Virus record (IMG/VR): IMGVR_UViG_3300031510_000036
Coordinates: 1-24,518 of that record
Length of the DNA: 24,518 bases
Direction: 5' to 3' (one strand)
From: a virus
The position numbers and the translations under genes were made by a program. Shown here one piece after another: positions 2,554-24,518 of the stretch. The notes under the pieces are model-generated. The model made no database searches, was not told the origin of the DNA, and worked only from the letters and a program-made list of their open reading frames with translations. Positions within the stretch are counted from its first letter, which is position 1; the number at the start of each line of letters is the position of its first letter.

Positions 2554-3159
2554 TTAGTGTCTAAAAGTCTCTCTTATTTTTTTGATTATTGATTTAACTT
2601 TCCATGAATAATCTTTATCACTGGCATATGCGTCTAGTGTGTCAACTAGTTCTAAACTATCTGCACCTAAAGCTAACTGAGCTCTGTACTTTTCATATGA
2701 GTGGTGATTACTTAATGTATTTATATACCATACCACACCATCACATTCATGTTGAAATACCTTAACTCCCCATTTTTTAGGATTATTTGATGGTAACATA
2801 TGAGGTTCTCTTAAATCATATGTTCTAATACCAAATAGGTTCTTACCTTCTTTGGCAAATCTACTATCTCCCCAACCAGACTCTAAAGCTGCCTGTGCCA
2901 ATAGTAAATCTTTATCTACTCTATTCGTTGTAAGATTATAGAAATAGATATAGGTTAAACATTGATTAACGTTGTCTATAAACTGTTGATTGTTTATATG
3001 TTCAAAGTTAGGTTTCTTTGGTAGATTACTATTTGCCTGTGCTTTATAAAAATGAAAAGTAACTGCACAAAATACAATAATAAATCCAACCATTAAGGTT
3101 TTAGATACTATTTTAAATGTTTTCAAATCTTCCTCGCTGTGTAATCGTAACCAGACCAC
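2554..3159 (-). CDS. Bax/GH73-like N-acetylglucosaminidase, probable endolysin
   Basis: A 201-residue murein hydrolase. Residues 18-36 form a hydrophobic signal or signal-anchor segment, followed by an AQA sequence (40-42) that could be a cleavage site. The catalytic domain has the family block LLLAQAALESGWGDSRFAKEG (86-105), with Glu93 as likely catalytic acid, then NLFGIRTY (108-115) and a C-terminal ASDKDYSWKVKSII region typical of Bax-like glucosaminidases. It should cut peptidoglycan glycan strands after export by Sec, without needing a holin for transport. The start is GTG 3159, chosen because AAGGA lies 6 nt upstream; ATG 3093 is an alternative. It overlaps the upstream gene by 37 nt. 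Confidence 0.8.
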   Translation of the reverse strand: MVWLRLHSEEDLKTFKIVSKTLMVGFIIVFCAVTFHFYKAQANSNLPKKPNFEHINNQQFIDNVNQCLTYIYFYNLTTNRVDKDLLLAQAALESGWGDSRFAKEGKNLFGIRTYDLREPHMLPSNNPKKWGVKVFQHECDGVVWYINTLSNHHSYEKYRAQLALGADSLELVDTLDAYASDKDYSWKVKSIIKKIRETFRH

Positions 3160-3432: not shown

Positions 3433-3864
3433 TTATAAGTCCAATCCTATTTTGTTTAATTTAGAACGATAACTATAAAATAATTGATTATGGTTACCGG
3501 TGTCTCCTTCGTTGGCCATCTGATATAGATGAACCATTTCGTGTGCTAACGTACAAGCGAAATCTTTTTTGTTTTTATAATACGGTATCATATGAAGTTG
3601 GTACTCTCTAGCACCAGTTCTATCCCAATCGTAGGTTAATACTTGGCCGTATATTTTCTCTGTTTTGTGTCTAAGCTGTTTAATAAGAACTTTGTTAAAA
3701 GGGGAAAGTTTGTTATCAAAGACTAGTTCATTTATCATAGTAAAATACATTTTTATATCTTTGTAAGTTGTTTTGTATTTCTTGTCAACTTTAGATATAT
3801 CTTCTTTAATGATAGATTTAACTTTCTTTATTTTGTGTAGTTTTGTTGATTTTCTTAATGCCAT
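3433..3864 (-). CDS. SprT-like zinc metalloprotease
   Basis: The 143-residue protein carries the zincin motif H-E-M-V-H at 108-112 with the preceding LA pair, and a third metal-ligand candidate in GNH (His125), followed by FYSYRSKLNKIGL. This is the arrangement of SprT-like domains, with Glu109 as catalytic base. The first 35 residues are strongly basic, which would suit DNA association. SprT/Spartan proteins cut DNA-protein crosslinks in cells; phage copies are usually uncharacterised. It lacks the C-terminal zinc ribbon of full-length SprT. A good ribosome binding site (TAAGGAAAT) precedes ATG 3864. Confidence 0.75.
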   Translation of the reverse strand: MALRKSTKLHKIKKVKSIIKEDISKVDKKYKTTYKDIKMYFTMINELVFDNKLSPFNKVLIKQLRHKTEKIYGQVLTYDWDRTGAREYQLHMIPYYKNKKDFACTLAHEMVHLYQMANEGDTGNHNQLFYSYRSKLNKIGLDL

Positions 3865-3884: not shown

Positions 3885-3905
3885 ATTATATACAATCCTT
3901 GTCAA
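3885..3905 (-). promoter_or_regulatory. Weak promoter candidate before SprT-like gene
   Basis: A perfect TATAAT lies at 3885-3890 and a perfect TTGACA at 3900-3905, but only 9 bp separate them, too short for a normal sigma-70 promoter. The TATAAT could work with another -35, or the TTGACA with a poor -10 (TTAACT, 3877-3882). It lies 20-40 nt before the SprT-like start. Confidence 0.3.
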
Positions 3906-4218
3906 CCGCTTTTGTGTCTTTTAATAGTTCACATTTATACTTCTTGTCTGCTTGTAATCTTAAATCTGTCATAACAGAATCTAAAATTGATGGTAAATAC
4001 TTTTGAAGTACACTTACCATTTCTAAAGCGTAAAGGTGACCAAGTTTCTGTAGTTCAGATTCCATTATAGCTTGATTGTCTATAGATGTACCCTTAATCG
4101 TCTCCGATATAACGTGACCAATAACTGCCGTGTTATAATCGTCTGCCTTAGCAAGTGATGATAGAGCATTCCATAATACAATGTTTACTATCGCAATCGT
4201 CATTAACAACTTTTTCAT
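3886..4218 (-). CDS. Exported small protein with Sec signal peptide (110 aa)
   Basis: I take ATG 4218 as start, because AAAAGGATATATT stands directly before it and the promoter at 4250-4278 would overlap a longer version of the frame (to 4278). From here the protein begins MKKLLMTIAIVNIVLWNALSSLAKADD: a classical signal peptide with a likely cut after AKA (residues 22-24). The mature part is about 85 residues, helical, with two Cys near the C-terminus (about 95 and 109) that could form a disulfide. No family is recognised. The product should be periplasmic. It is first in its transcript, followed by the SprT-like gene. Confidence 0.7.
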   Translation of the reverse strand: MKKLLMTIAIVNIVLWNALSSLAKADDYNTAVIGHVISETIKGTSIDNQAIMESELQKLGHLYALEMVSVLQKYLPSILDSVMTDLRLQADKKYKCELLKDTKAVDKDCI

Positions 4219-4249
4219 AATATATCCTTTTGTTCTTATTAATATATTT

Positions 4250-4278
4250 AGGATACCACTGTTTGGTATAGAAGTCAA
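4250..4278 (-). promoter_or_regulatory. Sigma-70-type promoter with extended -35
   Basis: Minus-strand TTGACT (4273-4278) and TATCCT (4250-4255) are separated by 17 bp. The -35 carries the upstream extension CG-C (CGCTTGACT). The -10 is imperfect. Predicted start near 4243 gives a 25-nt leader with a good ribosome binding site for the exported protein at 4218. It lies just beyond the hairpin at 4316-4349, as expected at an operon boundary. Confidence 0.6.
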
Positions 4279-4315
4279 GCGAAAAGTTTTTTAGAAAAGC
4301 GAGTAAAATGAGGGT

Positions 4316-4349
4316 TTTTAGAGGGTACTTTGTGTCGCACCCTCTAAAA
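4316..4349 (-). terminator. Strong hairpin, probable transcription terminator
   Basis: A perfect 11-bp inverted repeat: TTTTAGAGGGT on one arm, ACCCTCTAAAA on the other, with a 12-nt loop. It starts 11 nt after the stop of the gene at 4360-4860 and is followed by the promoter at 4250-4278. On the minus strand the stem is followed by AACCCTCATTTTAC rather than a clean U tract. Termination is therefore likely from position and stem strength, but not certain; it could be an mRNA 3'-end stabiliser. Confidence 0.6.
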
Positions 4350-4359
4350 CGTGAGGTTT

Positions 4360-4860
4360 TTAGTTGTTTTTAACGAAATTATCTGACCAGTTAAATGCTT
4401 CTTTAACTAGGTTTTCAGTTAAACCTTTGTATGTTTTGTTTAGGTCTTTGTTCTTAATGCCTAATAATACATCTGCGTCTTTGTTGTGTAATGATTCTAG
4501 TAGTCCAAGAAACATTTTCTCTTTTTGCAAAGAATTAGTTACCGGATCTGCACCTTTAACAAAGTGCCATAGTTTTTTACTTGCATAGAATAGACTAGTA
4601 TGTTCAGTCCCTTCAGGTGCTTCGTTTCTCATAAACGGTGGATTACCAGGTGGCATATCAAATGCGATTGCCGGATCAAATGCAGCTTTGAGTAATTGTC
4701 TCATGGCAGCTGTATCGTTCTTTTTTAATATTTTTAATTTGTCTTCTTTGTTTTTAGCGTTGTTGATCAGCGTAAAAATTTCATGTACAGTTTGTTCTCC
4801 TGAACCTGACGTTCTCTGAGCCGCCATTAAAGCTTTGTTTACTGGTGGTAATTGTGGCAT
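4360..4860 (-). CDS. Conserved T4-like-phage protein (possibly DUF6433 family)
   Basis: The 166-residue soluble protein resembles a family found across T4-like and marine myoviruses. Blocks that match my memory of it are AKNKEDKLKILKKND (35-49), LLKAAFDPAIAFDMPPGNPPF (56-76), the NEAPEGTEHTSLFYASKKLWHFVKGAD block (about 79-105), KEKMFLGLLESLH (113-125) and YKGLTENLVKEAF (143-155). The DUF number is from memory and unverified. Function is unknown. GGAGAAT stands before ATG 4860. It is the last gene before the hairpin at 4316-4349 and follows RNase H. Confidence 0.7.
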   Translation of the reverse strand: MPQLPPVNKALMAAQRTSGSGEQTVHEIFTLINNAKNKEDKLKILKKNDTAAMRQLLKAAFDPAIAFDMPPGNPPFMRNEAPEGTEHTSLFYASKKLWHFVKGADPVTNSLQKEKMFLGLLESLHNKDADVLLGIKNKDLNKTYKGLTENLVKEAFNWSDNFVKNN

Positions 4861-4884
4861 AATTTATTCTCCATATATATGTTG

Positions 4885-5733
4885 TTAAAAATCACTTGTA
4901 TTTTCAATTAATGATTTCAATTTATTATCAATAAAGTAGTTTAATAGGAGCGACCTATCTTTTACTTTATAATTTCTGTAAGTATTTATAATCGTTTTTT
5001 CTACGTCTTCCGGTATCTGTGATAGATCAATCAAAGTCTTGTTTCTATCATAGTTCTTTTTTACTTGTGGGTCTATTTCTAATGAAGTCTCTATATTTTT
5101 AAACTCTTCCAATCTTTTCTTATTGATAGGCTTTTGTCTCTCGTCTCTTAAAAATATATCGTCATCACTTAATACATTTGGTACACCATCTGATCTATCA
5201 CCTTTGATAATTTGTTCGTGTAAGAATTGTATAGGGTCTACTTGCTCACCAATAAAACTTTTAAGAATTGGACTAAATTGGTAAACATCTCCGTAATGGT
5301 GTAACTGTATAAAGTCTTTGTCACCTGATACGATTAAGTATTTGTCTTCTTCTCTCAATTTTATAAGACTAGCGATAATATCGTCAGCCTCTGTATTATC
5401 TACATGCATAACTACGTATGGAAAGTTATCAATCAATTCTTGTTTGATCTCCATCATAATTTTGAATATGTTATCCCAATCAGTATCCGAATCTACTCTT
5501 CCTTTTCTTCTACCATGTTTGTAGTTAGGAAATATAGTTCTTCTCCATGGATTGGCAGCGTCTGAACATAGTACCATTGTACCATATTCTTCTCTAAACT
5601 TTAGATTAAAACCACGTAATGAATTTAATACCATTTGTCTTACCATTTCTAAATTAGGTTTAACATCTGCTTTGCCTCTGGTCTGCACCATCAGGTTTGA
5701 AATTAGTACTTGATTTAAATCTACGAGTATCAT
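4885..5733 (-). CDS. rnh: T4-type RNase H, 5'-3' FEN-family nuclease
   Basis: A 282-residue member of the flap endonuclease/5'-exonuclease family, close in size to T4 RNase H. Metal-binding acidic residues appear in order: Asp5 (MILVDLN), Asp58 (LCSDAANPWR), the TEADDII block (Glu115, Asp117, Asp118), SGDKDFIQL (Asp138, Asp140) and KGDRSDGVPNV (Asp179, Asp182). It should remove RNA primers from lagging-strand fragments, working with the primase encoded at 20810-21814 and a host or phage polymerase. The helical arch region is represented by the basic RRTIFPNYKHGRRKGR segment (64-79). Neighbours are a 70-aa coiled-coil protein upstream (directly abutting) and a conserved phage protein downstream. 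Confidence 0.88.
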   Translation of the reverse strand: MILVDLNQVLISNLMVQTRGKADVKPNLEMVRQMVLNSLRGFNLKFREEYGTMVLCSDAANPWRRTIFPNYKHGRRKGRVDSDTDWDNIFKIMMEIKQELIDNFPYVVMHVDNTEADDIIASLIKLREEDKYLIVSGDKDFIQLHHYGDVYQFSPILKSFIGEQVDPIQFLHEQIIKGDRSDGVPNVLSDDDIFLRDERQKPINKKRLEEFKNIETSLEIDPQVKKNYDRNKTLIDLSQIPEDVEKTIINTYRNYKVKDRSLLLNYFIDNKLKSLIENTSDF

Positions 5734-5946
5734 TTAATTATATTCACTCCAATGCTTGTCTTTAGGTGTTACTTTACCTTTAATCTTTGCTCTTATTCTA
5801 CTTCGTAATACTGAAATTCTATACTTGATACCATCAATGGTTGTCCACATCCAACCACAATCATGTGGTTCTATTTGTTTTTTAAACCATTTATTGGTCT
5901 CTTGTAATGTCTTGATTTGAGTTTGTAATTGTTTTACTGTTGACAT
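5734..5946 (-). CDS. Small basic coiled-coil protein (70 aa)
   Basis: The 70-residue protein has an N-terminal heptad-like stretch (MSTVKQLQTQIKTLQETNKWFKKQ in overlapping pieces, residues 1-24) and a basic C-terminal half with a Trp-rich turn (CGWMWTTIDG). AGGA precedes ATG 5946. It directly abuts the RNase H gene and lies downstream of the GNRA-capped hairpin. No function is recognised; the basic tail could bind nucleic acid. Confidence 0.65.
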   Translation of the reverse strand: MSTVKQLQTQIKTLQETNKWFKKQIEPHDCGWMWTTIDGIKYRISVLRSRIRAKIKGKVTPKDKHWSEYN

Positions 5947-5970
5947 CTGGTTTCCTGGTTGAGTTAGGTA

Positions 5971-5990
5971 GGTGGCGATTGCTCGCCACC
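5971..5990 (-). terminator. GC-rich hairpin with GNRA loop between genes
   Basis: An 8-bp perfect stem GGTGGCGA/TCGCCACC is capped, in the minus-strand RNA, by the loop GCAA, a GNRA tetraloop. It lies 12 nt after the stop of the winged-helix-like gene and 24 nt before the next start. No U tract follows, so it may be an RNA 3'-end stabiliser, a pause or attenuation site, or a Rho-assisted terminator rather than an intrinsic one. It stands out sharply in AT-rich DNA. Confidence 0.55.
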
Positions 5991-6002
5991 ATACACAATG
6001 TT

Positions 6003-6299
6003 CTAGTTTTTGTAAGCGAATGGTGTTCCGTACAGTTTAGTAATACCAGCAGCTATGATAGCTTTAGTTGGTGAACCAATTCTGTATGAAGTTCCTTTTG
6101 CTGACTTGTTGATATAGATCATATTACCTTGTGATCTTAATTTATCAACCATCGCTCTTGGCGATATAAGGTCAAACTTGTTTCTTAATACTGTCCAAGA
6201 TACAGCTTCACCTTTGTTCAAAAGATTTAATACCTTTTGAGTTTTGCTCATAGCAGGTCTTCCGACTCTACCAAAAGCGTTTTTAATTGATTTAAACAT
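6003..6299 (-). CDS. Winged-helix/HTH-like DNA-binding protein (98 aa)
   Basis: The 98-residue basic protein has a segment at 18-70 with the pattern of a winged helix: SKTQKVLNLLNKGEAVSW, then LRNKFDLISPRAMVDKLRSQG as a likely recognition-helix region, then a beta wing (NMIYINKSAKGTSYRIGSP). Similar small proteins in marine T4-like phages are annotated as hypothetical or HTH. It may regulate transcription or bind replicating DNA; no target is visible. An excellent ribosome binding site (AAAAGGAGAG) precedes ATG 6299. The gene is bounded by an 83-nt gap upstream and the GNRA hairpin downstream, so it may be strongly and separately expressed. Confidence 0.6.
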   Translation of the reverse strand: MFKSIKNAFGRVGRPAMSKTQKVLNLLNKGEAVSWTVLRNKFDLISPRAMVDKLRSQGNMIYINKSAKGTSYRIGSPTKAIIAAGITKLYGTPFAYKN

Positions 6300-6382
6300 T
6301 TTGTTTAACTCTCCTTTTGTTGTTATTAAATGCTATTTTACAACCTGCTGAGGCGATTACCGGAGTAATTTTGTTAGAAAGA

Positions 6383-6895
6383 CTATTTGTCATCATCGTT
6401 ACCAAGGTCCTCATCACTTTCAAAGAAAGTGCCGGCACCATTTGTTAGATCATCTAGTTCTTCTTTAATTTCTTTATTAAATGGTCTTGTAGGTTTAAGT
6501 GTTTCCATAACTCTACTGTAATCAATTGTTGCTGATCTGTGGCCATTTTTCATTTGTTTTACTTGTACTATTTTATCTATAAGAGAGTGTGATGTATGTT
6601 TCATACCAAAGTCTCTGTATATTAAACCTCTTAATGAGTCAACCACCATTGCTAAGTCTTTTGTAAAGTTAATCTTATCTGTTTTGATTGCAATGTCTAA
6701 AAAACTGTTTATTAAATTCATAACTATATTATCTACAGACGATTCAACAAATGCTTTCGTCTGAGCATGTTTAATTTTATCATTAGCTTCAGATTGTTTC
6801 TTTACAAAGTCTGGAGTAGGTTCACTTGTACCACCTTTATATCTTACAATCTTATTAGTAGGAAACTGTATAATATTATCTTTTTCATCTACCAC
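6383..6895 (-). CDS. Conserved hypothetical phage protein (170 aa)
   Basis: The start is GTG 6895, which overlaps the TAG stop of glutaredoxin by one base (TAGTG), pointing to translational coupling. The protein has an N-terminal stretch DNIIQFPTNKIVRY, a central helical domain (about 50-125; DNIVMNLINSFLDIAIKTDK and LAMVVDSLRGLIYRDFGM) and a very acidic C-terminal tail (EDLGNDDDK). It resembles hypothetical proteins of marine T4-like phages. No catalytic motif is visible. The acidic tail is like those of single-strand-DNA-binding accessory proteins, but this is only an analogy. Confidence 0.65.
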   Translation of the reverse strand: MVDEKDNIIQFPTNKIVRYKGGTSEPTPDFVKKQSEANDKIKHAQTKAFVESSVDNIVMNLINSFLDIAIKTDKINFTKDLAMVVDSLRGLIYRDFGMKHTSHSLIDKIVQVKQMKNGHRSATIDYSRVMETLKPTRPFNKEIKEELDDLTNGAGTFFESDEDLGNDDDK

Positions 6896-7155
6896 TATAA
6901 AACCTTACCCTCAAAATTAATCTTGCCTTCTTCTACAAAAAACTCTAGTAGTTGATTATATCCACCGACTAGTTCATCATCTATTTTAACTTGTGGCATT
7001 GATTTAACTTTTTTACCAATGTCCTCTAACATAACATCTAAAGACGCAAAGTCTTCCATCTTACGTTCTTCGTATTCAAGGCCAAGATTCTTTACAAGTT
7101 CTTTGGCCTTGGTACAGAATTGACAGTTATTTTTACTGTATATTACTATTTTCAT
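6895..7155 (-). CDS. Glutaredoxin
   Basis: An 86-residue single-domain glutaredoxin. The redox pair is C11-Q-F-C14, preceded by IYSKNN, with the cis-proline at Pro54 (SMPQV) and the Gly-Gly turn at 64-65 (LVGGYNQL). It should supply electrons to the phage class Ia ribonucleotide reductase encoded at 17379-20813; T4-like phages commonly carry such a protein for that purpose. The active site is CQFC rather than the classical CPYC, a variation seen in phage glutaredoxins. It starts inside the last codons of the LPP20-like lipoprotein gene (23 nt overlap), so it shares that transcript. Confidence 0.88.
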   Translation of the reverse strand: MKIVIYSKNNCQFCTKAKELVKNLGLEYEERKMEDFASLDVMLEDIGKKVKSMPQVKIDDELVGGYNQLLEFFVEEGKINFEGKVL

Positions 7156-7756
7156 TTTCTGTTTTCATTAAGTTATCATAAGCAATGTTTGCTTTTTTCT
7201 TAACATTATATGAATCCACAGCTTCTTCAATTGTGAAGTTATACATTTTATTGTATTCGCCCATTGGTAATCTTAAACCAATCCAAGCTCTGTAGTATCC
7301 ATTTTTAGTTATAGTTACATCTTTAGCAAAGATTTCATAACCTCTAACAGGTGTCTCTTTGATTAAGTTTACTATTGTAGACTCAACCTCTGATACAGTT
7401 GTTTTGTTATTATTCTTTCCTAGTTCAGTAATAAACTGCTTACTAGACTTATTCATTTCGCCTTTGATAATGTCGGCTAATTCTGCTTTCGCAATCATCA
7501 TACCTTTTTCTATTGCTAGATTAAGGTCTGGTGATACGGCAGTACCAACACCAAAGATACACATTTTATCTTTGTCTTTACCAAATTTAGGTGTATCACA
7601 TGCTTTACTTTCTTTAAAGTCAGCCATGTACCACTTTGGCACTTCATTAAGGACTTTGCCTTTCTCGGACTTCATATTGTAAGTTGCCGAACAGTTAGCC
7701 ATTAATAGGCCTGCTACTGCAATTCCAATAAGTTTACTTACTTTGTTTTTCATCAT
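7133..7756 (-). CDS. LPP20-like outer-membrane lipoprotein
   Basis: The 207-residue protein starts with a lipoprotein signal (KNKVSKLIGIAVAGLLMANC), Cys22 being the lipidation site; position -1 is Asn, unusual but matched by the lipoprotein at 8715-9197. After a short linker comes VPKWYMADF, then IFGVGTAVSPDLNLAIEKGMMIAKAELADII (about 68-98), the pattern of LPP20/FlgP-type lipoproteins where a 'GxG.....L..A...A...AR/K..LA' block is typical. Members are surface or periplasmic lipoproteins in host bacteria. Two in-frame ATGs (7756, 7753) are possible starts after GTGAGG. A strong promoter precedes it (7780-7808), so it can be made apart from the rest of the operon. Confidence 0.7.
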   Translation of the reverse strand: MMKNKVSKLIGIAVAGLLMANCSATYNMKSEKGKVLNEVPKWYMADFKESKACDTPKFGKDKDKMCIFGVGTAVSPDLNLAIEKGMMIAKAELADIIKGEMNKSSKQFITELGKNNNKTTVSEVESTIVNLIKETPVRGYEIFAKDVTITKNGYYRAWIGLRLPMGEYNKMYNFTIEEAVDSYNVKKKANIAYDNLMKTENENSNIQ

Positions 7757-7899
7757 ATATTATTTACCTCACTTTTTATATAATACACTAATTGACCTGC
7801 TTTGTCAAGTCCTATTTGAATATAGTCCAGGAACTCACTTCCAGACAATCCAGTGATTATTACAAATAAAAGTGATAGTATGATTAGATTTTTAATCAT
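7753..7899 (-). CDS. Small membrane or exported protein (48 aa)
   Basis: I take ATG 7899, which follows the upstream stop by 1 nt and has GGAAGG about 9 nt before it; the longer open frame to 8028 runs antisense-like through the upstream gene and is rejected. The protein (MIKNLIILSLLFVIITGLSGSE) has a hydrophobic N-terminal segment (residues 2-18), either a membrane anchor or a weak signal peptide, then a 30-residue polar tail. The -35 of the next promoter lies in its 3' end. No family is recognised. Confidence 0.55.
   Translation of the reverse strand: MIKNLIILSLLFVIITGLSGSEFLDYIQIGLDKAGQLVYYIKSEVNNI
7780..7808 (-). promoter_or_regulatory. Sigma-70-type promoter before LPP20-like gene
   Basis: TTGACA (7803-7808) and TATTAT (7780-7785) are 17 bp apart on the minus strand. 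The -35 extension is GGACTTGACA, close to the GCTTGAC form of the other promoters. The predicted start near 7773 leaves a 17-nt leader containing GTGAGG for the lipoprotein start at 7756. It lies within the coding region of the 48-aa gene. Confidence 0.7.
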
Positions 7900-7900
7900 A

Positions 7901-8380
7901 TTATTGTACCTTCCATTCACCGTCCTTGTTAAGACACGTCTTTCCGAACGACTTAAACACGTGTTTTGGTCTACTATAGACTCTACAGTACTCTGGAGCA
8001 GATATATCTCTATAGTAAAACTGAGCAAACAGTTCCCAATAACTTGGGCCGTCTACTTTTTTTCTACCATCAGCACACTCCAACGTCTCTTGTTTTTCAA
8101 CTGTATTGTCGGTTGTTTTGATAGTAATTTTGACATAACAATATTGATCAGCTGCATTTTTTGGTTCTATTGTAGTGATCTTGTTATAATAAACTTTGTC
8201 TTTTTCTTTCTCAACTCTTTCAATTTTGTCTAATACTTCAATAGTCTTATTAACGGTATCTGATACCTCAACATTTTTTACAGGCACAACTAGACCAGAT
8301 AGATCACCATTCTCACCATGATCATGGTCTGCTTTGGCACTTACTGTAAGTATCATTAATATTACTAAAAATTTATTCAT
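7901..8380 (-). CDS. Exported protein with Sec signal peptide (159 aa)
   Basis: The protein begins MNKFLVILMILTVSAKADHDHG: a signal peptide with a likely cut after AKA (about residue 17), leaving a mature N-terminus rich in His and Asp (DHDHGENGD) that could bind metal. A coiled segment (about 40-65, charged) follows, then a beta-like region with paired Cys residues (near 82 and 100, 133 and 149). The C-terminus (CLNKDGEWKV) recalls the 'C..PDG.W' ending of the surface-antigen-like lipoprotein two genes upstream. No family is assigned. Its start overlaps the previous stop by 4 nt (ATGA). Confidence 0.65.
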   Translation of the reverse strand: MNKFLVILMILTVSAKADHDHGENGDLSGLVVPVKNVEVSDTVNKTIEVLDKIERVEKEKDKVYYNKITTIEPKNAADQYCYVKITIKTTDNTVEKQETLECADGRKKVDGPSYWELFAQFYYRDISAPEYCRVYSRPKHVFKSFGKTCLNKDGEWKVQ

Positions 8381-8535
8381 TGTACCTTTAATTTCTTTAA
8401 CGTATCATTAACTTCAAAAAGTTCATCTTCAAGTTGGTGTACTTTTGTTTCGTCTCTACCTTGATAATGATCCATTTGTTCTATAATTTGTTTCTTTTCT
8501 TCTCTTAATCTATTCACTGTAGGATTATCGCTCAT
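8377..8535 (-). CDS. Small coiled-coil protein (52 aa)
   Basis: A 52-codon frame starts at ATG 8535, overlaps the upstream gene by 11 nt and ends with an ATGA overlap into the exported protein gene. The product (begins MSDNPTVNRLREEKK) is charged and helical throughout, with heptad-like spacing of Leu, Ile and Val from residue 9 to 50. It is cytoplasmic by sequence. No family is recognised. The chained overlaps support it as real despite its length. Confidence 0.6.
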   Translation of the reverse strand: MSDNPTVNRLREEKKQIIEQMDHYQGRDETKVHQLEDELFEVNDTLKKLKVQ

Positions 8536-8713
8536 ATTTACCCTTATCATTAGAAACTAATTTACACTGTAGTTGTACATCTTCTATCATTGCATTCACT
8601 TCAGCGTCTCTTTCAGGAGTTTTAGGTTGATTGTATTTTGTATCATATAATCTATCACTCACTTTTTTTATTCCATCAATCTTTTTACAAAGATCACTTA
8701 TTCTATGTATCAT
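8525..8713 (-). CDS. Hypothetical protein (62 aa)
   Basis: A 62-residue charged helical protein (begins MIHRISDLCKKIDGIKKV) with two Cys (9 and 50) and no signal or membrane segment. It starts 1 nt after the stop of the surface-antigen-like lipoprotein gene and overlaps the next small gene by 11 nt. No function is recognised. Confidence 0.6.
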   Translation of the reverse strand: MIHRISDLCKKIDGIKKVSDRLYDTKYNQPKTPERDAEVNAMIEDVQLQCKLVSNDKGKYER

Positions 8714-8714
8714 A

Positions 8715-9197
8715 TTATTTACTCACCATTTCTACCCAACGACCATCTGGTAACTGACAAGTAGTACCAAAGACAACCGAACGGTTAACACCACCAACAC
8801 CAATTAGTGGCCATTGACTTGTTATATCTACAGTGGCGTCATAATCTTTACACTTAAAAGGACCCTCTAGGTATGATTTAGTAACTTTTATAATACCTGA
8901 ATTGCCTGTTTTTTTATTGTACCAATTTGTGTAAGATGAACCACTAGGACCATTATTTAAATGATCTACGAATACAGCATTGTGTACATCGTAATCTGAA
9001 TTATACATAATTTCTGCACCAGCAAAGGCACCAACAACAGCACAACCGGCTATCATATATGGGTCTTGCACACCAAGGTTTATACATGCACCAGTGGTTG
9101 TGGTTGAACCTAACACAGCACCAACTTGCGATCTATTCGTGTTGGCACAATTTGTTAGGGTTAACCCGACTAAAATTATAAGTATAAGTCTCATCAT
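8715..9197 (-). CDS. 17-kDa surface-antigen-like lipoprotein
   Basis: The 160-residue protein has a lipoprotein signal MMRLILIILVGLTLTNC with Cys17 as lipidation site (Asn at -1). A Gly/Ala-rich hydrophobic stretch follows (about 26-63; VGAVLGS and AGCAVVGAFAGAEIM), similar to the glycine-zipper of Rickettsia 17-kDa antigen-type proteins. The C-terminal half carries the ending seen in that surface-antigen family: NWYNKKTGNSGIIKVT (about 91-106), a Cys-centred CKDYDATVDI, and GTTCQLPDGRWVEM. The protein is likely placed in the outer membrane. In alphaproteobacteria such proteins affect envelope architecture; the role in a phage is unknown. It abuts the small exported protein gene upstream. Confidence 0.72.
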   Translation of the reverse strand: MMRLILIILVGLTLTNCANTNRSQVGAVLGSTTTTGACINLGVQDPYMIAGCAVVGAFAGAEIMYNSDYDVHNAVFVDHLNNGPSGSSYTNWYNKKTGNSGIIKVTKSYLEGPFKCKDYDATVDITSQWPLIGVGGVNRSVVFGTTCQLPDGRWVEMVSK

Positions 9198-9404
9198 TTA
9201 TTGTTTCTTAGCAAATAACAATTTAATTTTGTTAATAGTATTACTTAACTGCTCTTTGCCCTCTGCCCAACTCTTAGCTTGGTATTCTTTTGTCTTTACA
9301 ATTTCGTTAGACAAATGATTTGTAACTTTAGTTGCAACATCTTCACTTTTAGCCATTGTCATTGTCATTAAGACAGCAATGGTTAACATCATCATAGTTT
9401 TCAT
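9198..9404 (-). CDS. Small exported protein (68 aa)
   Basis: The N-terminus MKTMMMLTIAVLMTMTMAKSEDVA is a Met-rich signal peptide with a likely cut after TMA (residue 18). The mature 50 residues are amphipathic and helical (VATKVTNHLSNEIVKTKEYQ) and end in a basic tail (LLFAKKQ). It could associate with a membrane face in the periplasm. ATG 9404 overlaps the preceding stop as ATGA. No family is recognised. Confidence 0.6.
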   Translation of the reverse strand: MKTMMMLTIAVLMTMTMAKSEDVATKVTNHLSNEIVKTKEYQAKSWAEGKEQLSNTINKIKLLFAKKQ

Positions 9405-18500: not shown

Positions 18501-20813
18501 TTATATTGTGCAACTATCACAATCCTCTTCAATTTGTTCTTTAGGAGGATCTTCAGGTGTTATTGGTGTATCGTAATCTATAGAGTGTTTAGGCTCTTCA
18601 ATGTCTTTCTTACTGTCATAAGTGTTTTGATAGTAAGATGTTTTCCAACCTAATCTATAAGTTGTTAGTAAGTCTTGTGCCATAACCGATATAGGTACTT
18701 GATTATCTTCATAGTTATCTGGATTATAAGACCAGTTACCTGATATAGCTTGATCAAAGTACTTTTGCATTACGGCTACTACATTTATATATCCCTCATT
18801 ACTAGGCATATCCCATAATAAAGTATAATAATTTTTTAATTTGTTATATTCTGGTACTATCTGTTTTAATGTGCCTTTCTTACTTTTCTTAACTGATAAG
18901 TGGTCTCTAGGTGGTTCAATGCCATTTGTAGCATTTGATACCACACTAGAAGACTCGGAAGGCATTTGGGCCGATAGAGTACTATGTCTTAGCCCAAATT
19001 CTTTAATATCTTTTCTTAATTGTTCCCATTTCATAGATAACTTACGAGTTACGATCTCATCTACTTCTTTTTTGTAAGTATCTATTGGTAATATACCATC
19101 TGCATATTTTGTTCTATGAAATAGATCACACTGACCTTTTTCTTTTGCAAGTGTATTTGATGACTTTAACAGATAGTATTGAAACGCTTCTGATAATTTA
19201 TCTACTTCTTTCCAGGCACCTTTTTCATTGTATTTAAACCCTGCTTTTGCTAAAAAGTGTGCGAGACCAATATAACCAATACCTAATGATCTTCTTCCTT
19301 TAGTTGATACTTCGGCGGCCTTAACAGGATATTGTTGATGGTCTATAATTTCTTCTAATGATCTTACTGCAAGGTCGCATAGTTCTTCCAGTTCATCCAG
19401 TTGATTGAGTTTACCAACATTAATTGCTGATAGAATACATAGAGCAATCTCTCCTTGACCATCTATATGCTGTATAGGAGTGGTAGGGAGTGTGATCTCT
19501 TGACATAGGTTACTCATAGTGATAGTATCTTTAAAACTGGAGTGTGTATTACAATGATCAATATTCATTATGTAAATACGACCTGTTTCTGCTCTTTCTT
19601 TTAATATGTCTGTAAATAGTGTTTGAGCGCTTACTTTTTGTTTCTTAATAGAAGTTTTTCTTTCTGCTCTTTCATATAGTTCATCAAATGCTGGTGTTCC
19701 CCAAGCTTCATATAATTCAGGTACATCATGTGGAGAGAATAGAGTTATTTCTTCTTCATTAATAAATCTTTCATAGAATAATTTAGAAAGTTGAATAGAG
19801 TAATCTAATTTTCTAACTCTGTTATCTTCACTACCTTTGTTGTTCTTTAAAACAATAATGTCTTCTATTTCTTGGTGCCAAATTGGGAAGTGTACAGTTG
19901 CTGAACCGCCTCTAACTCCGTTTTGAGTACAACACTTAACCGTTGCTTCAAATTTTTTGAGAAAAGGAATAACACCTGTGTGTTGGACTTCACCTCCTCT
20001 GATTCTTGCATTGATTCCACGTATTCTTCCTGCATTGATTCCAATGCCGGCTCTTTGTGCAACGTAAGAGCCAATAGCCATGTCGCTGCTGAAAATACTA
20101 CCAAGAGTGTCGTCACTATCAACAAGTACGCAACTAGCATACTGCTTAATAGGAGTACGGACACCAGCCATAACAGGTGTAGGTATATTAATTTTAAAAT
20201 TGGATATCGAATCATAATACTTCTTGACATAGGTCATTCTCCTTGATTTTGGATAATTTTGAAACAGTGTAGCAGAAATCATCATGTACATAAATTGTGG
20301 AGTTTCATAAATTTCTCCGTTTGATCTATCTTGTACTAGATACTTGTCTATAACTTGTCTTAAACCGGCATATGTAAAGTTGTTATCTCTTTCATGTGTT
20401 ATCCAGTTTTGCATTCTACTAAAATCTTTTCTCTCATATTTTTTCATTATATCAGGATCATAAACACCTCTTTTAACACACTTCTCTACGTGGTCAATCA
20501 TACTAGGGTGATCCCATAATCTGCCAATAACTTGTTTTCTTAAACTAAACAATAACAATCTAGCAGCTACATATTGATAATTTGGATTGTCTAGTGATAT
20601 TAAATCTGAAGCAGACTTAATTAAAATTTGTTGTATGTCATCTGTTGACATGCCATCATAAAATTGTAAACCACTATTCATTTCAACTTGTGACGCTGAT
20701 ACACCTTTTATATCTTCGCAAGCAAACTCAACCATTTCATGTATTTTTTCAATGCTAAGTAGTTCTAATCCACGACCACCTCTTTTTTTAACGTTTAATA
20801 TTTCTGATGTCAT
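18501..20813 (-). CDS. nrdA: Class Ia ribonucleotide reductase, alpha subunit
   Basis: The 770-residue protein is a full-length R1 subunit. An ATP-cone regulatory domain is at about 5-95 (RGGRGLELLSIEKIHEMVEF; ISLDNPNYQYVAARLLLFSL). Catalytic residues: Cys228 (QYASCVLVD), Asn435-x-Cys437-x-Glu439 (SNLCQEITLP) and Cys459 (ALCILSAIN). The radical-transfer tyrosines are 727-728 (SYYQNTYD), and the C-terminal shuttle pair is Cys765/Cys768 (DCDSCTI). All essential residues are intact. Its first 4 nt overlap the primase stop (ATGA), and a consensus promoter inside primase stands about 64 nt upstream of the start, so nrdAB can be expressed apart from primase. Confidence 0.96.
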   Translation of the reverse strand: MTSEILNVKKRGGRGLELLSIEKIHEMVEFACEDIKGVSASQVEMNSGLQFYDGMSTDDIQQILIKSASDLISLDNPNYQYVAARLLLFSLRKQVIGRLWDHPSMIDHVEKCVKRGVYDPDIMKKYERKDFSRMQNWITHERDNNFTYAGLRQVIDKYLVQDRSNGEIYETPQFMYMMISATLFQNYPKSRRMTYVKKYYDSISNFKINIPTPVMAGVRTPIKQYASCVLVDSDDTLGSIFSSDMAIGSYVAQRAGIGINAGRIRGINARIRGGEVQHTGVIPFLKKFEATVKCCTQNGVRGGSATVHFPIWHQEIEDIIVLKNNKGSEDNRVRKLDYSIQLSKLFYERFINEEEITLFSPHDVPELYEAWGTPAFDELYERAERKTSIKKQKVSAQTLFTDILKERAETGRIYIMNIDHCNTHSSFKDTITMSNLCQEITLPTTPIQHIDGQGEIALCILSAINVGKLNQLDELEELCDLAVRSLEEIIDHQQYPVKAAEVSTKGRRSLGIGYIGLAHFLAKAGFKYNEKGAWKEVDKLSEAFQYYLLKSSNTLAKEKGQCDLFHRTKYADGILPIDTYKKEVDEIVTRKLSMKWEQLRKDIKEFGLRHSTLSAQMPSESSSVVSNATNGIEPPRDHLSVKKSKKGTLKQIVPEYNKLKNYYTLLWDMPSNEGYINVVAVMQKYFDQAISGNWSYNPDNYEDNQVPISVMAQDLLTTYRLGWKTSYYQNTYDSKKDIEEPKHSIDYDTPITPEDPPKEQIEEDCDSCTI

Positions 20814-21860: not shown

Positions 21861-22358
21861 TTAATTTAAAAATGAGAACCAGGAGATCAATCCGTTCCTA
21901 GATAGTGACATTGCTGTTACAGCTTCCATTGCCAGAAAGGCACCGATGATTATCCATTTGTATTTTTCTAATAAACTTACCCGATTACCTATACTTTTCT
22001 TTAAATCTTTTATCTCGTTCATTATTCTGGTCTCGGAATCAATACTCTCTGTCTTTCGTTCTTTTATCTCACTTAATAGTCTATGCTCTGATTCTTCTAT
22101 TAGTTGTCTAGTCTCGTTTTCTAACGTTGATGTCTCACTAGCTCTAATTTTAAGTTTTGAGAATATGACATCATCTATTTTTTCCTGGTGTTCTATCTTT
22201 TCTTCATGTACTGCCAGCATAGATTTAATATGAGTTGATACATCTGTTAACTTATCAATAGCAATATCCAATCTACTTTGAATATTATTAACCTGTTGTA
22301 CGTCTTTGGTTAACTCTGCTAATTGTACGTGAATTGATGTTTGATCGTTATTTACCAT
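21861..22358 (-). CDS. Coiled-coil protein with C-terminal membrane anchor (165 aa)
   Basis: Residues 8-135 form a charged coiled coil with heptad-like hydrophobics (QLAELTKDVQQVNNIQSRLD, then RQLIEESEHRLLSEIKERKT). A hydrophobic segment WIIIGAFLAMEAVTAMSL lies near 136-153, followed by a short tail (SRNGLISWFSFLN). A tail-anchored topology, coil in the cytoplasm, is likely. Similar tail-anchored coil proteins occur in marine T4-like phages without known function. It is between the cyclase and primase genes, separated from the cyclase by a hairpin and a promoter candidate. It has no Shine-Dalgarno. Confidence 0.65.
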   Translation of the reverse strand: MVNNDQTSIHVQLAELTKDVQQVNNIQSRLDIAIDKLTDVSTHIKSMLAVHEEKIEHQEKIDDVIFSKLKIRASETSTLENETRQLIEESEHRLLSEIKERKTESIDSETRIMNEIKDLKKSIGNRVSLLEKYKWIIIGAFLAMEAVTAMSLSRNGLISWFSFLN

Positions 22359-22429: not shown

Positions 22430-22456
22430 AAAAGATAAGTTTTTTAGTTATCTTTT
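22430..22456 (-). terminator. AT-rich hairpin at end of cyclase gene
   Basis: AAAAGATAA and TTATCTTTT form a perfect 9-bp stem with a 9-nt loop that includes the cyclase stop codon (22444-22446). On the minus strand the 3' arm runs into a TTTTTCTTC tract, so this resembles an intrinsic terminator. The stem is AT-rich and weak. It would separate the cyclase transcript from the coiled-coil gene. Confidence 0.45.
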
Positions 22457-24102
22457 TTATCATTAACCTCCACTGTGAAAATTGATACTTCATTTGACTT
22501 GCCTTTTACTTTAACCTGATCTAATTTCTTAAAATTAAATTTATTACGGATTTCTCCGTAGGTATCGTAACCGACTATTAGAGTAGCGTCATAATTTTTA
22601 GATATGCCTTCTAATCTACTTGCCAAATTTACTGCGTCACCTAAAACTGAATAATCAAACCTTTGCTTTGATCCCATATTGCCTACTACGGCAGAACCAG
22701 AGTTTATTCCAATGCCTATATTTATGTTATTGTCTTTCCCAAAGTGTGCATTATCATTTAATTCTTTTAAACAATCAATCATTTCTAGTGCTGAAGATAC
22801 AGCTAGTGACCTATGGTTAGGTTGATCTATCGGAGCGTTCCAAAACGCCATGATACAATCTCCCATATACTTATCAATAGTACCACCGTTCTTCATTATT
22901 ATGTCTGTCATAGGTGTTAGAAATTTGTTTATGATTACAGTAAGTCCTTGTGGATTACTTTGAAACTTTTCTGAAATAGGAGTAAAACCTCTTATGTCAC
23001 AAAACAAAAAGGTCATATCTCTTGTTTCGCCACCTAATTTTAATAAATTAGGATTTTCTTGTAACTTCTTAACCATCTTTGGTTCTAGGTAATGTTCAAA
23101 CTGTTTTTTAATTTGTAGTTTTAATCTGTTTTCTCTTGCAAAGTTATTGTATATTAAATGTGTCCATACTATACTACCTATTATTGCGATTGACGACCAA
23201 TCTGTAATTATCATTTTACTTTGCCATAGATAGCCACTTGCAACTGCTAACTCACAATAGAAACCTATTAAACATAATGATGACCATAGTAGACCAACTC
23301 TAGGCATAACAAGTATAAAGAAAGTTAATGCTAGTATTAATATAATCCACTCTGCAATAGGTGTCCAATCTGGTCTAGTTATAAACTTACCTGATAGTAA
23401 GGTCTCTGTTGATACTGCCATGATTTCATGTGTGTTCATTAAACCATTAGGTGTTTGTACAAAAGTAGAACCTGTAAACGTAGCACCTATGAATACTATC
23501 TTACCTTTCATAGACGACCAATCTTTATCTGCATAATCTACTCTAGGTACGTGGTGTCTGAAATCAATCCATATTTCATCCTGATTAGGTACTTTAAACT
23601 TAATAATATCTAAAATCTTTTTAGGCACGGAATTATCCAGAGGTAATTTTCGTATAACATTGTCAACACTTATTGCCACTTCCACGTTAGCGACTGCTAG
23701 TGCCCTCCTCCCTATGGCAATTAAGTTCTTTGCTTGATCTGTTTCAGTTAGTATAACTGGATATTTGGAGATCATCTTCAAAAACATTTCATCACCACCA
23801 AGTCTATCTTTGTGTACAAATACTACGTTCAGAAATACTAGAGCTGCACCGTTTCTATATGCATTAACTATGGCACGACCTAGTTTGTCTCTTTTCCATG
23901 GCCATTGTCCTTCTTTAACTAATGCCTCATCTGATATGTCTAACATTACCAAACTTTTAGATTTGTAATTATTACCAAACTGTTGGTATAAATCAAATGT
24001 TTTTAGTTGTAGTGTTTGTAGAGGTATTGGATTATAAAGTTTTATTCCTAATAGAATTACTACACTTACTATTACTGCCCATACGGAAGTAAATTTAATC
24101 AT
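22444..24102 (-). CDS. CHASE2-domain class III adenylate/guanylate cyclase
   Basis: The 552-residue protein is complete. Residues 1-22 are a membrane anchor; about 28-240 is a periplasmic CHASE2 sensor (KTFDLYQQFG, MLDISDEALVKEGQWPW, FIGATFTGS); three TM spans follow (about 251-267, 270-290, 300-317); a cyclase homology domain fills 360-545. Metal Asp369 (FCDIRGFTP) and Asp415 (IDKYMGDCIMAFW), base-recognising Lys411, and transition-state Asn492 and Arg496 (DAVNLASRLE) are all present. The position paired with Lys is Ser485, where bacterial adenylate cyclases usually have Thr or Asp. It should make cAMP from ATP at the inner membrane; cGMP is not excluded. The upstream gene ends 4 nt away. 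Phage-encoded cyclases of this type are unusual; it was probably acquired from a bacterium. Confidence 0.93.
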   Translation of the reverse strand: MIKFTSVWAVIVSVVILLGIKLYNPIPLQTLQLKTFDLYQQFGNNYKSKSLVMLDISDEALVKEGQWPWKRDKLGRAIVNAYRNGAALVFLNVVFVHKDRLGGDEMFLKMISKYPVILTETDQAKNLIAIGRRALAVANVEVAISVDNVIRKLPLDNSVPKKILDIIKFKVPNQDEIWIDFRHHVPRVDYADKDWSSMKGKIVFIGATFTGSTFVQTPNGLMNTHEIMAVSTETLLSGKFITRPDWTPIAEWIILILALTFFILVMPRVGLLWSSLCLIGFYCELAVASGYLWQSKMIITDWSSIAIIGSIVWTHLIYNNFARENRLKLQIKKQFEHYLEPKMVKKLQENPNLLKLGGETRDMTFLFCDIRGFTPISEKFQSNPQGLTVIINKFLTPMTDIIMKNGGTIDKYMGDCIMAFWNAPIDQPNHRSLAVSSALEMIDCLKELNDNAHFGKDNNINIGIGINSGSAVVGNMGSKQRFDYSVLGDAVNLASRLEGISKNYDATLIVGYDTYGEIRNKFNFKKLDQVKVKGKSNEVSIFTVEVNDKKDN

Positions 24103-24106
24103 ATAT

Positions 24107-24518
24107 CTATTTAGACTGGATTATTGTAACCTTAGCACCATTAGATCCAGCTACTAAAGCCTGAGTTTCTATTCCTTGTATTACCATAATATCAAAATTT
24201 TCAAGAGAGTTAGTAGTAAGATATACTCTATGATTGTCAAATATTCTATCCATTCTTTTATAACCGTTGTCGCCAGAGTGAACTGAAAAATTTGCTGTAT
24301 TATCAAAAGTTGAATATCTACCTGTATTTGTTACCGAAGATGAAACACCATTTGTAGTTGTTGTCACCGTTTGAGTTATATCACCTGTATAATAGTTAAT
24401 TATTTCACCAGTTGCTTTTACTTTAGTGGTAACACCTGTATTATCAACCCATTTTGTACCACAAATGCTATTACTTTTATCCCAATAGTAACCAGAGTAT
24501 ATACAATCAGATTCAGTT
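24107..24518 (-). CDS. C-terminal part of an unknown, probably exported protein (partial)
   Basis: The frame is open from base 24517 to the stop at 24107-24109, giving 136 residues; the N-terminus is outside the window. I treat GTG 24367 as an internal codon. The visible part has CIYSGYYWDKSNSICGTKW, with two Cys 13 residues apart, then a Thr/Ser/Asn-rich beta-like region (TQTVTTTTNGVSSSVTNTG), then a tail ending GIETQALVAGSNGAKVTIIQ. Low charge and Thr/Asn richness are typical of surface or fibre proteins. No family is recognised; a FecR-like partner of CHASE2 cyclases was considered but not supported. The cyclase begins 4 nt downstream, so the two are probably co-expressed. Confidence 0.55.
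   Translation of the reverse strand, partial: TESDCIYSGYYWDKSNSICGTKWVDNTGVTTKVKATGEIINYYTGDITQTVTTTTNGVSSSVTNTGRYSTFDNTANFSVHSGDNGYKRMDRIFDNHRVYLTTNSLENFDIMVIQGIETQALVAGSNGAKVTIIQSK

Follow-up and report, generated by a model that had tools for sequence, protein, structure and literature searches.

Why does a phage carry a complete CHASE2 sensor cyclase, and what might such an enzyme do during infection? The question is raised by a 24.5-kb IMG/VR virus record (24,518 nucleotides, analyzed at full length and hereafter called the window), whose minus strand encodes T4-like NrdA, NrdB, primase, RuvC-like resolvase and T4-type RNase H proteins. The features that bear on it are the following:

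18501-20813, minus strand: ribonucleotide reductase NrdA, 81% identical to that of Pelagibacter phage Mosig
20810-21814, minus strand: DNA primase (PHROG 47), a fixed neighbour that marks the contig as a T4-like phage
21861-22358, minus strand: DUF7201 coiled-coil protein (Pfam PF23831), the constant neighbour downstream of the module, in conserved order
22444-24102, minus strand: CHASE2 protein of 552 aa, a predicted class III adenylyl cyclase (PHROG 35576)
22486-23022, minus strand: class III nucleotide cyclase domain, residues 361-539, with D369, K411, D415, S485, N492 and R496
23320-24054, minus strand: CHASE2 sensor region, residues 17-261 (Pfam PF05226, E=1.8e-25), a shortened form as judged by alignment
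24107-24517, minus strand: C-terminus of a FecR-like periplasmic protein, the last gene before the cyclase, truncated by the contig end
24108-24114, minus strand: CTAAATA, a putative variant of the late promoter, located 12 bases before the cyclase ATG and overlapping the FecR stop codon

The initial annotation had called the contig a T4-like phage, and the NrdA match to Mosig agrees with this. The primase is 64% identical to that of the same phage, and the two matches together make SAR11 bacteria the likely host. In Mosig, the nearest named relative by these two proteins, neither a cyclase nor a CsgG match was found. A misassembly of bacterial and phage DNA at about 22400, which the annotation had raised as a possible objection, was ruled out, because more than 20 further viral contigs show the gene order cyclase, DUF7201, primase, NrdA. 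The window contained no RNA elements at gathering thresholds and no tRNAs were found in it.

ORF analysis of the window showed that the 552-aa frame is unbroken and starts with ATG. Both Pfam domains exceeded their curated cut-offs: Guanylate_cyc matched residues 361-539 with E=2.8e-22, and CHASE2 scored 90.4 bits against a cut-off of 26.3, covering positions 6-250 of the 257 in the profile. The AlphaFold2 model of the protein had a mean pLDDT of 86, with a confident cyclase fold, and contained TM-type helices at residues 4-23, 246-268, 271-296 and 302-335, one before and three after the predicted periplasmic domain. A structure search matched the catalytic half to CyaB (Z 26.6, 2.1 Å across 188 residues), CyaC (Z 26.0) and Cya2 (Z 25.9). 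It turned up no PDB relative for the CHASE2 part, from which absence is not to be inferred, as it probed mainly residues 319-548. The two metal-binding aspartates (D369 and D415), the purine-binding K411, N492 and R496 were all in place, and the catalytic residues are retained in nearly all phage homologues. At the second specificity position the protein has S485; the corresponding residue is Thr in CyaB, an adenylyl cyclase, and Gly in Cya2, a guanylyl cyclase. The pair K411/S485 predicts that the substrate is likely ATP and the product cAMP. Comparison with close relatives gave dN/dS values of ~0.15-0.26, with synonymous changes predominating, and purifying selection was stronger in the catalytic half for most close pairs.

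The cyclase is thus real, whole and under selection. The earlier claims of a full-length sensor enzyme in one frame, of four membrane spans, of a complete set of catalytic residues and of selection were all confirmed, and only the description of the CHASE2 domain as intact needs qualification: the domain is well above its cut-off and shows no decay, but about 330 residues precede the catalytic half, compared with 382-409 in other phage modules. Because the shortened sensor is shared by the entire lineage of the window, it is a trait of that lineage and not decay.

The gene that precedes the cyclase was identified from its relatives. The truncated ORF is 89.6% identical across 135 aa to the C-terminus of a 796-aa FecR-like ORF in locus L009, and 44-66% identical to the FecR-like ORFs (715-800 aa) of other loci. 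In this near clade the proteins fall short of the Pfam FecR model, and the name comes from BLAST similarity to the FecR proteins of phages Melnitz and HTVC008M. The window ends inside FecR and holds only the end of a module; its csgF, csgG and curlin content was taken from relatives such as L003 (csgG, PF03783, 1e-50; csgF, PF10614, 1.5e-8). Within the lineage the order is either csgF-csgG-curlin-like-FecR (~720 aa)-cyclase or one in which the cyclase diverges from csgF. The 12 co-directional and 15 divergent arrangements show that the link between cyclase and module survives rearrangement. The cyclase was present in 22 of 22 phage csgG loci having enough flank (9/9 in the near clade), and csgG in 30 of the 31 cyclase loci having enough upstream DNA.

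A cyclase in the pelagiphage curli module is already known. The annotations of HTVC008M and Melnitz include one, which ends the cluster csgF-csgG-curlin-FecR-curlin-cyclase, and Wittmers et al. 2022 (PMC9599517) placed FecR and adenylate cyclase in the viral curli (T8SS) module of pelagiphages; CHASE2, promoters and CRP go unmentioned in their main text. The first reports of phage curli genes (Zaragoza-Solas 2020, PMC7029224; Buchholz 2022, PMC9004378) do not mention the cyclase in the main text. The window lineage carries a compact variant of the published module. It shares with the module of Wittmers et al. the genes for CsgF, CsgG, curlin, FecR and adenylate cyclase, the phage group and an alphaproteobacterial kinship, but has one curlin-like gene, a FecR-like protein of ~720 aa, a shortened CHASE2 and a cyclase that is sometimes divergent. 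The HTVC008M (AGE60353) and Melnitz (QZI94833) cyclases hold the same module position and are 31-32% identical to the window protein over 98% of the query; however, they have a longer sensor and belong to another catalytic subtype (51% and 42% identity, respectively, in the catalytic half). The Melnitz protein (L082:12001-14052), unlike that of the window, has also lost the catalytic Asn, with VSTAAR instead of VNLASR, which suggests that cyclase activity may be dispensable in some phages; its branch is very long. A single contig, L018, carries two CHASE2 cyclase genes of differing subtype, arranged tail to tail (L018:1277-4381).

The upstream regions of these genes contained recognizable promoter-like motifs. 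The exact T4-type late motif TATAAATA occurred within 100 bases of csgF in 76 of 114 unique upstream regions, where dinucleotide shuffles gave an expectation of 3.4, and in no case upstream of csgG, csgB or FecR. The variant CTAAATA preceded the cyclase in 30/81 phage loci (~2.7 expected). In HTVC008M, the late motif lies at -13 of csgF and a variant of it at -12 of the cyclase, and these motifs are found 12 to 69 bases ahead of many structural genes and of hardly any replication genes. The frequency of the motif at csgF and its placement in HTVC008M suggest that module and cyclase are probably expressed late in infection. Buchholz 2022 (PMC9004378) predicted 15 late promoters in Melnitz; no passage assigning any of them to the curli genes was found in the accessible text of that article.

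The same type of cyclase is also associated with a different set of exporter genes:

L036:2519-11929 and L289-L301: type I secretion-like cyclase loci, with the csg genes replaced by FecR-cadherin, OEP, ABC-type and HlyD genes

A search with the L036 outer-membrane gene led to 13 other viral loci, and in all 13 the cyclase ends a cluster of FecR-cadherin, OEP/TolC-like, ABC-type membrane protein, HlyD and small protein genes, the FecR-cadherin gene lying past the contig end in several. CsgG was absent from the five largest of these records, and the OEP matched none of 50,697 named phage records; this variant with a cyclase was found in no named phage and in no paper. One record is 148 kb long and encodes a phage DNA polymerase, an RNase H-type exonuclease and tail fibres, and the polymerase and tail-fibre genes identify it as a phage. 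The Gp23 capsid model had no match in the type I secretion-bearing phage records, which therefore may not be ordinary T4-like phages.

The close bacterial relatives of the cyclase are mostly alphaproteobacterial. They (e.g., L205, L214 and L227) share with the phage proteins the domain order, FecR or secretion neighbours and up to ~59% identity in the catalytic half, but form a separate clade in the sensor tree, and some adjoin cNMP-binding effectors. A FecR-like gene lay within ~8 kb in 25 of 49 bacterial loci and within 300 bp in 16, against a chance proximity of ~1%, given about 3 FecR genes per 5 Mb; most of 20 genomes checked had only 1-7 such genes. In contrast to the phage modules, csgG or csgF was near none of the 49. 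Genes for cNMP-binding proteins were found in 11/49 bacterial loci and in no phage loci. In L227, the FecR neighbour is a large adhesin combining FecR, cadherin-like and RTX parts. An alphaproteobacterial single-cell genome (L214:6273-10793) has a cNMP-binding/HlyD fusion adjoining the CHASE2 cyclase, which lies between this fusion and a stand-alone cNMP-binding protein within a type I secretion cluster. This arrangement raises the possibility that cAMP controls the secretion system directly. An operon in Burkholderia, BiofilmReg, joins a FecR/LysM protein to a CHASE2 histidine kinase and is tied to biofilm (PMC5192318). It resembles the phage arrangement in its FecR periplasmic partner and in a CHASE2 sensor with one TM before and three after, but its output is a histidine kinase with a response regulator rather than a cyclase.

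Sensor and catalytic halves have had partly separate histories. In the sensor tree, the phage sequences group in a single clade that excludes the bacterial set (SH-aLRT 99), and the phage catalytic halves fall on one side of a branch (86). L025 and L026 combine a window-like sensor (62-64%) with an HTVC008M-like catalytic half (86%), and L029 and L030 show the reverse, an HTVC008M-like sensor with a window-like catalytic half. Sensor types nest within FecR types in all 59 of 59 complete phage modules, while catalytic types cross over, and across phage modules the partial rho with FecR was 0.80 for the sensor vs. 0.18 for the catalytic half. This pattern fits FecR as the partner of CHASE2. Coevolution was rejected as proof of contact: the match is strong across types, but within the near clade of the window it shows no such specificity for the sensor half. 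Physical linkage alone could yield it, as FecR usually adjoins the sensor-coding end.

Taken together, we consider it slightly on the probable side that the enzyme is a FecR-coupled CHASE2 adenylyl cyclase whose role, late in infection, is to report on the export of surface proteins. A CsgG/CsgF pore installed by the phage would then export the curlin-like protein, and CHASE2 would sense, in the periplasm, either the secreted FecR protein or how export stands; CHASE2 would switch the cytoplasmic homodimeric cyclase, making cAMP from ATP; and this cAMP would signal the progress of surface remodelling or serve to time it. Its basis in sequence is the intact enzyme, the constant linkage, the late-type motifs and the kinship to alphaproteobacterial FecR-linked CHASE2 cyclases.

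The initial annotation had instead suggested that the phage could reset host cAMP signalling through CRP-like regulators. By this account the cell would be flooded with cAMP and its carbon or energy regulation redirected. In its favour, cAMP-CRP is widespread in bacteria: 287 of 385 sampled Alphaproteobacteria had a cNMP-binding domain. We surveyed 99 genomes of the SAR11 family, which was sampled by way of two member genomes bearing all four SAR11 16S probe sites, using a search that detected the receptors of E. coli and Caulobacter as controls. Only five of the 99 had a cNMP-binding domain, and two had a class III cyclase above the cut-off, both like the phage copies; many of these genomes may be incomplete, which weakens single absences but not the overall pattern. 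A phage-encoded CRP or other cNMP receptor was rejected as well, with none in 18 phage records, including HTVC008M, Melnitz and Mosig, and none at the phage loci. The CRP route thus would lack a receptor in the likely host, where any cAMP target is probably not a CRP-type protein, and late-type promoter motifs do not suit an early takeover. Melnitz infects OM43, a host outside the SAR11-family survey. The proposal was not borne out, and we regard it as very unlikely. Neither did we find a link to cyclic-nucleotide defences, with which the annotation had suggested the phage might interfere; CBASS- or Pycsar-type immunity would be the target of such a counter-defence. PADLOC Pycsar cyclase models do match the catalytic domain (best E=4.9e-26), but the shared class III fold explains these matches, and Pycsar membership was rejected. 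The neighbours of the cyclase are FecR, csg genes or DUF7201 and primase, with no Pycsar effector; its residues are of the ATP cyclase type, and the module, with its late-type motifs, is linked to surface export. Such a role is scarcely plausible.

The lack of receptors in host family and phage would also be expected if the cyclase were a passenger that arrived together with an ancestral FecR-secretion cluster of bacteria and has been retained only because it belongs to the module, while its product finds no target in current hosts. The bacterial relatives located in FecR or secretion clusters, including one that adjoins cNMP-binding proteins, and the loss of the catalytic Asn in Melnitz point the same way. 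However, a passenger would hardly be under purifying selection that, in most close pairs, constrains the catalytic half more strongly, or keep its catalytic residues near-universally; catalytic halves have been swapped among phages, not lost, and the cyclase has its own late-type motif. We consider this unlikely. Buchholz 2022 (PMC9004378) proposed a pinholin/secretin-like role for the phage CsgG/F pore, and the cyclase might gate or time that pore as the working device, in keeping with the late-type motifs and with pore genes that nearly always accompany it. The curlin-like proteins and FecR are conserved too, though, as would be expected of an exporter more than of a pore alone, and in other phages the same cyclase occurs with type I secretion-like genes in place of CsgG. 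This use in lysis or pore timing appears decidedly unlikely.

Curli-like modules are widespread among ocean phages, and the cyclase is tied to the module in every testable case. A cAMP signal would need a new target in the presumed host family, which usually lacks a CRP-type receptor. That other phages couple this cyclase to type I secretion-like genes suggests a general export controller built from FecR and CHASE2. More tentatively, and less likely than not, FecR and the CHASE2 cyclase might form a portable controller that marine phages join to alternative exporters of surface proteins, either curli T8SS in pelagiphages or a FecR-cadherin/type I secretion-like module in other large phages, thereby installing an orphan cAMP channel with an undescribed receptor in hosts without a cAMP system of their own.

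Elsewhere in the window, a series of small genes at 3886-9404 encodes signal-peptide or lipoprotein-like products (e.g., 7133-7756 and 8715-9197), and 3433-3864 encodes a small HExxH-motif protein that by eye looks like an SprT-like metallopeptidase. At 2554-3159 and 1632-2552, an endolysin-like glucosaminidase with an N-terminal membrane segment adjoins a membrane/coiled-coil protein; the N-terminus of the latter looks, by eye, similar to L306:17731-19389 of the 148-kb phage.
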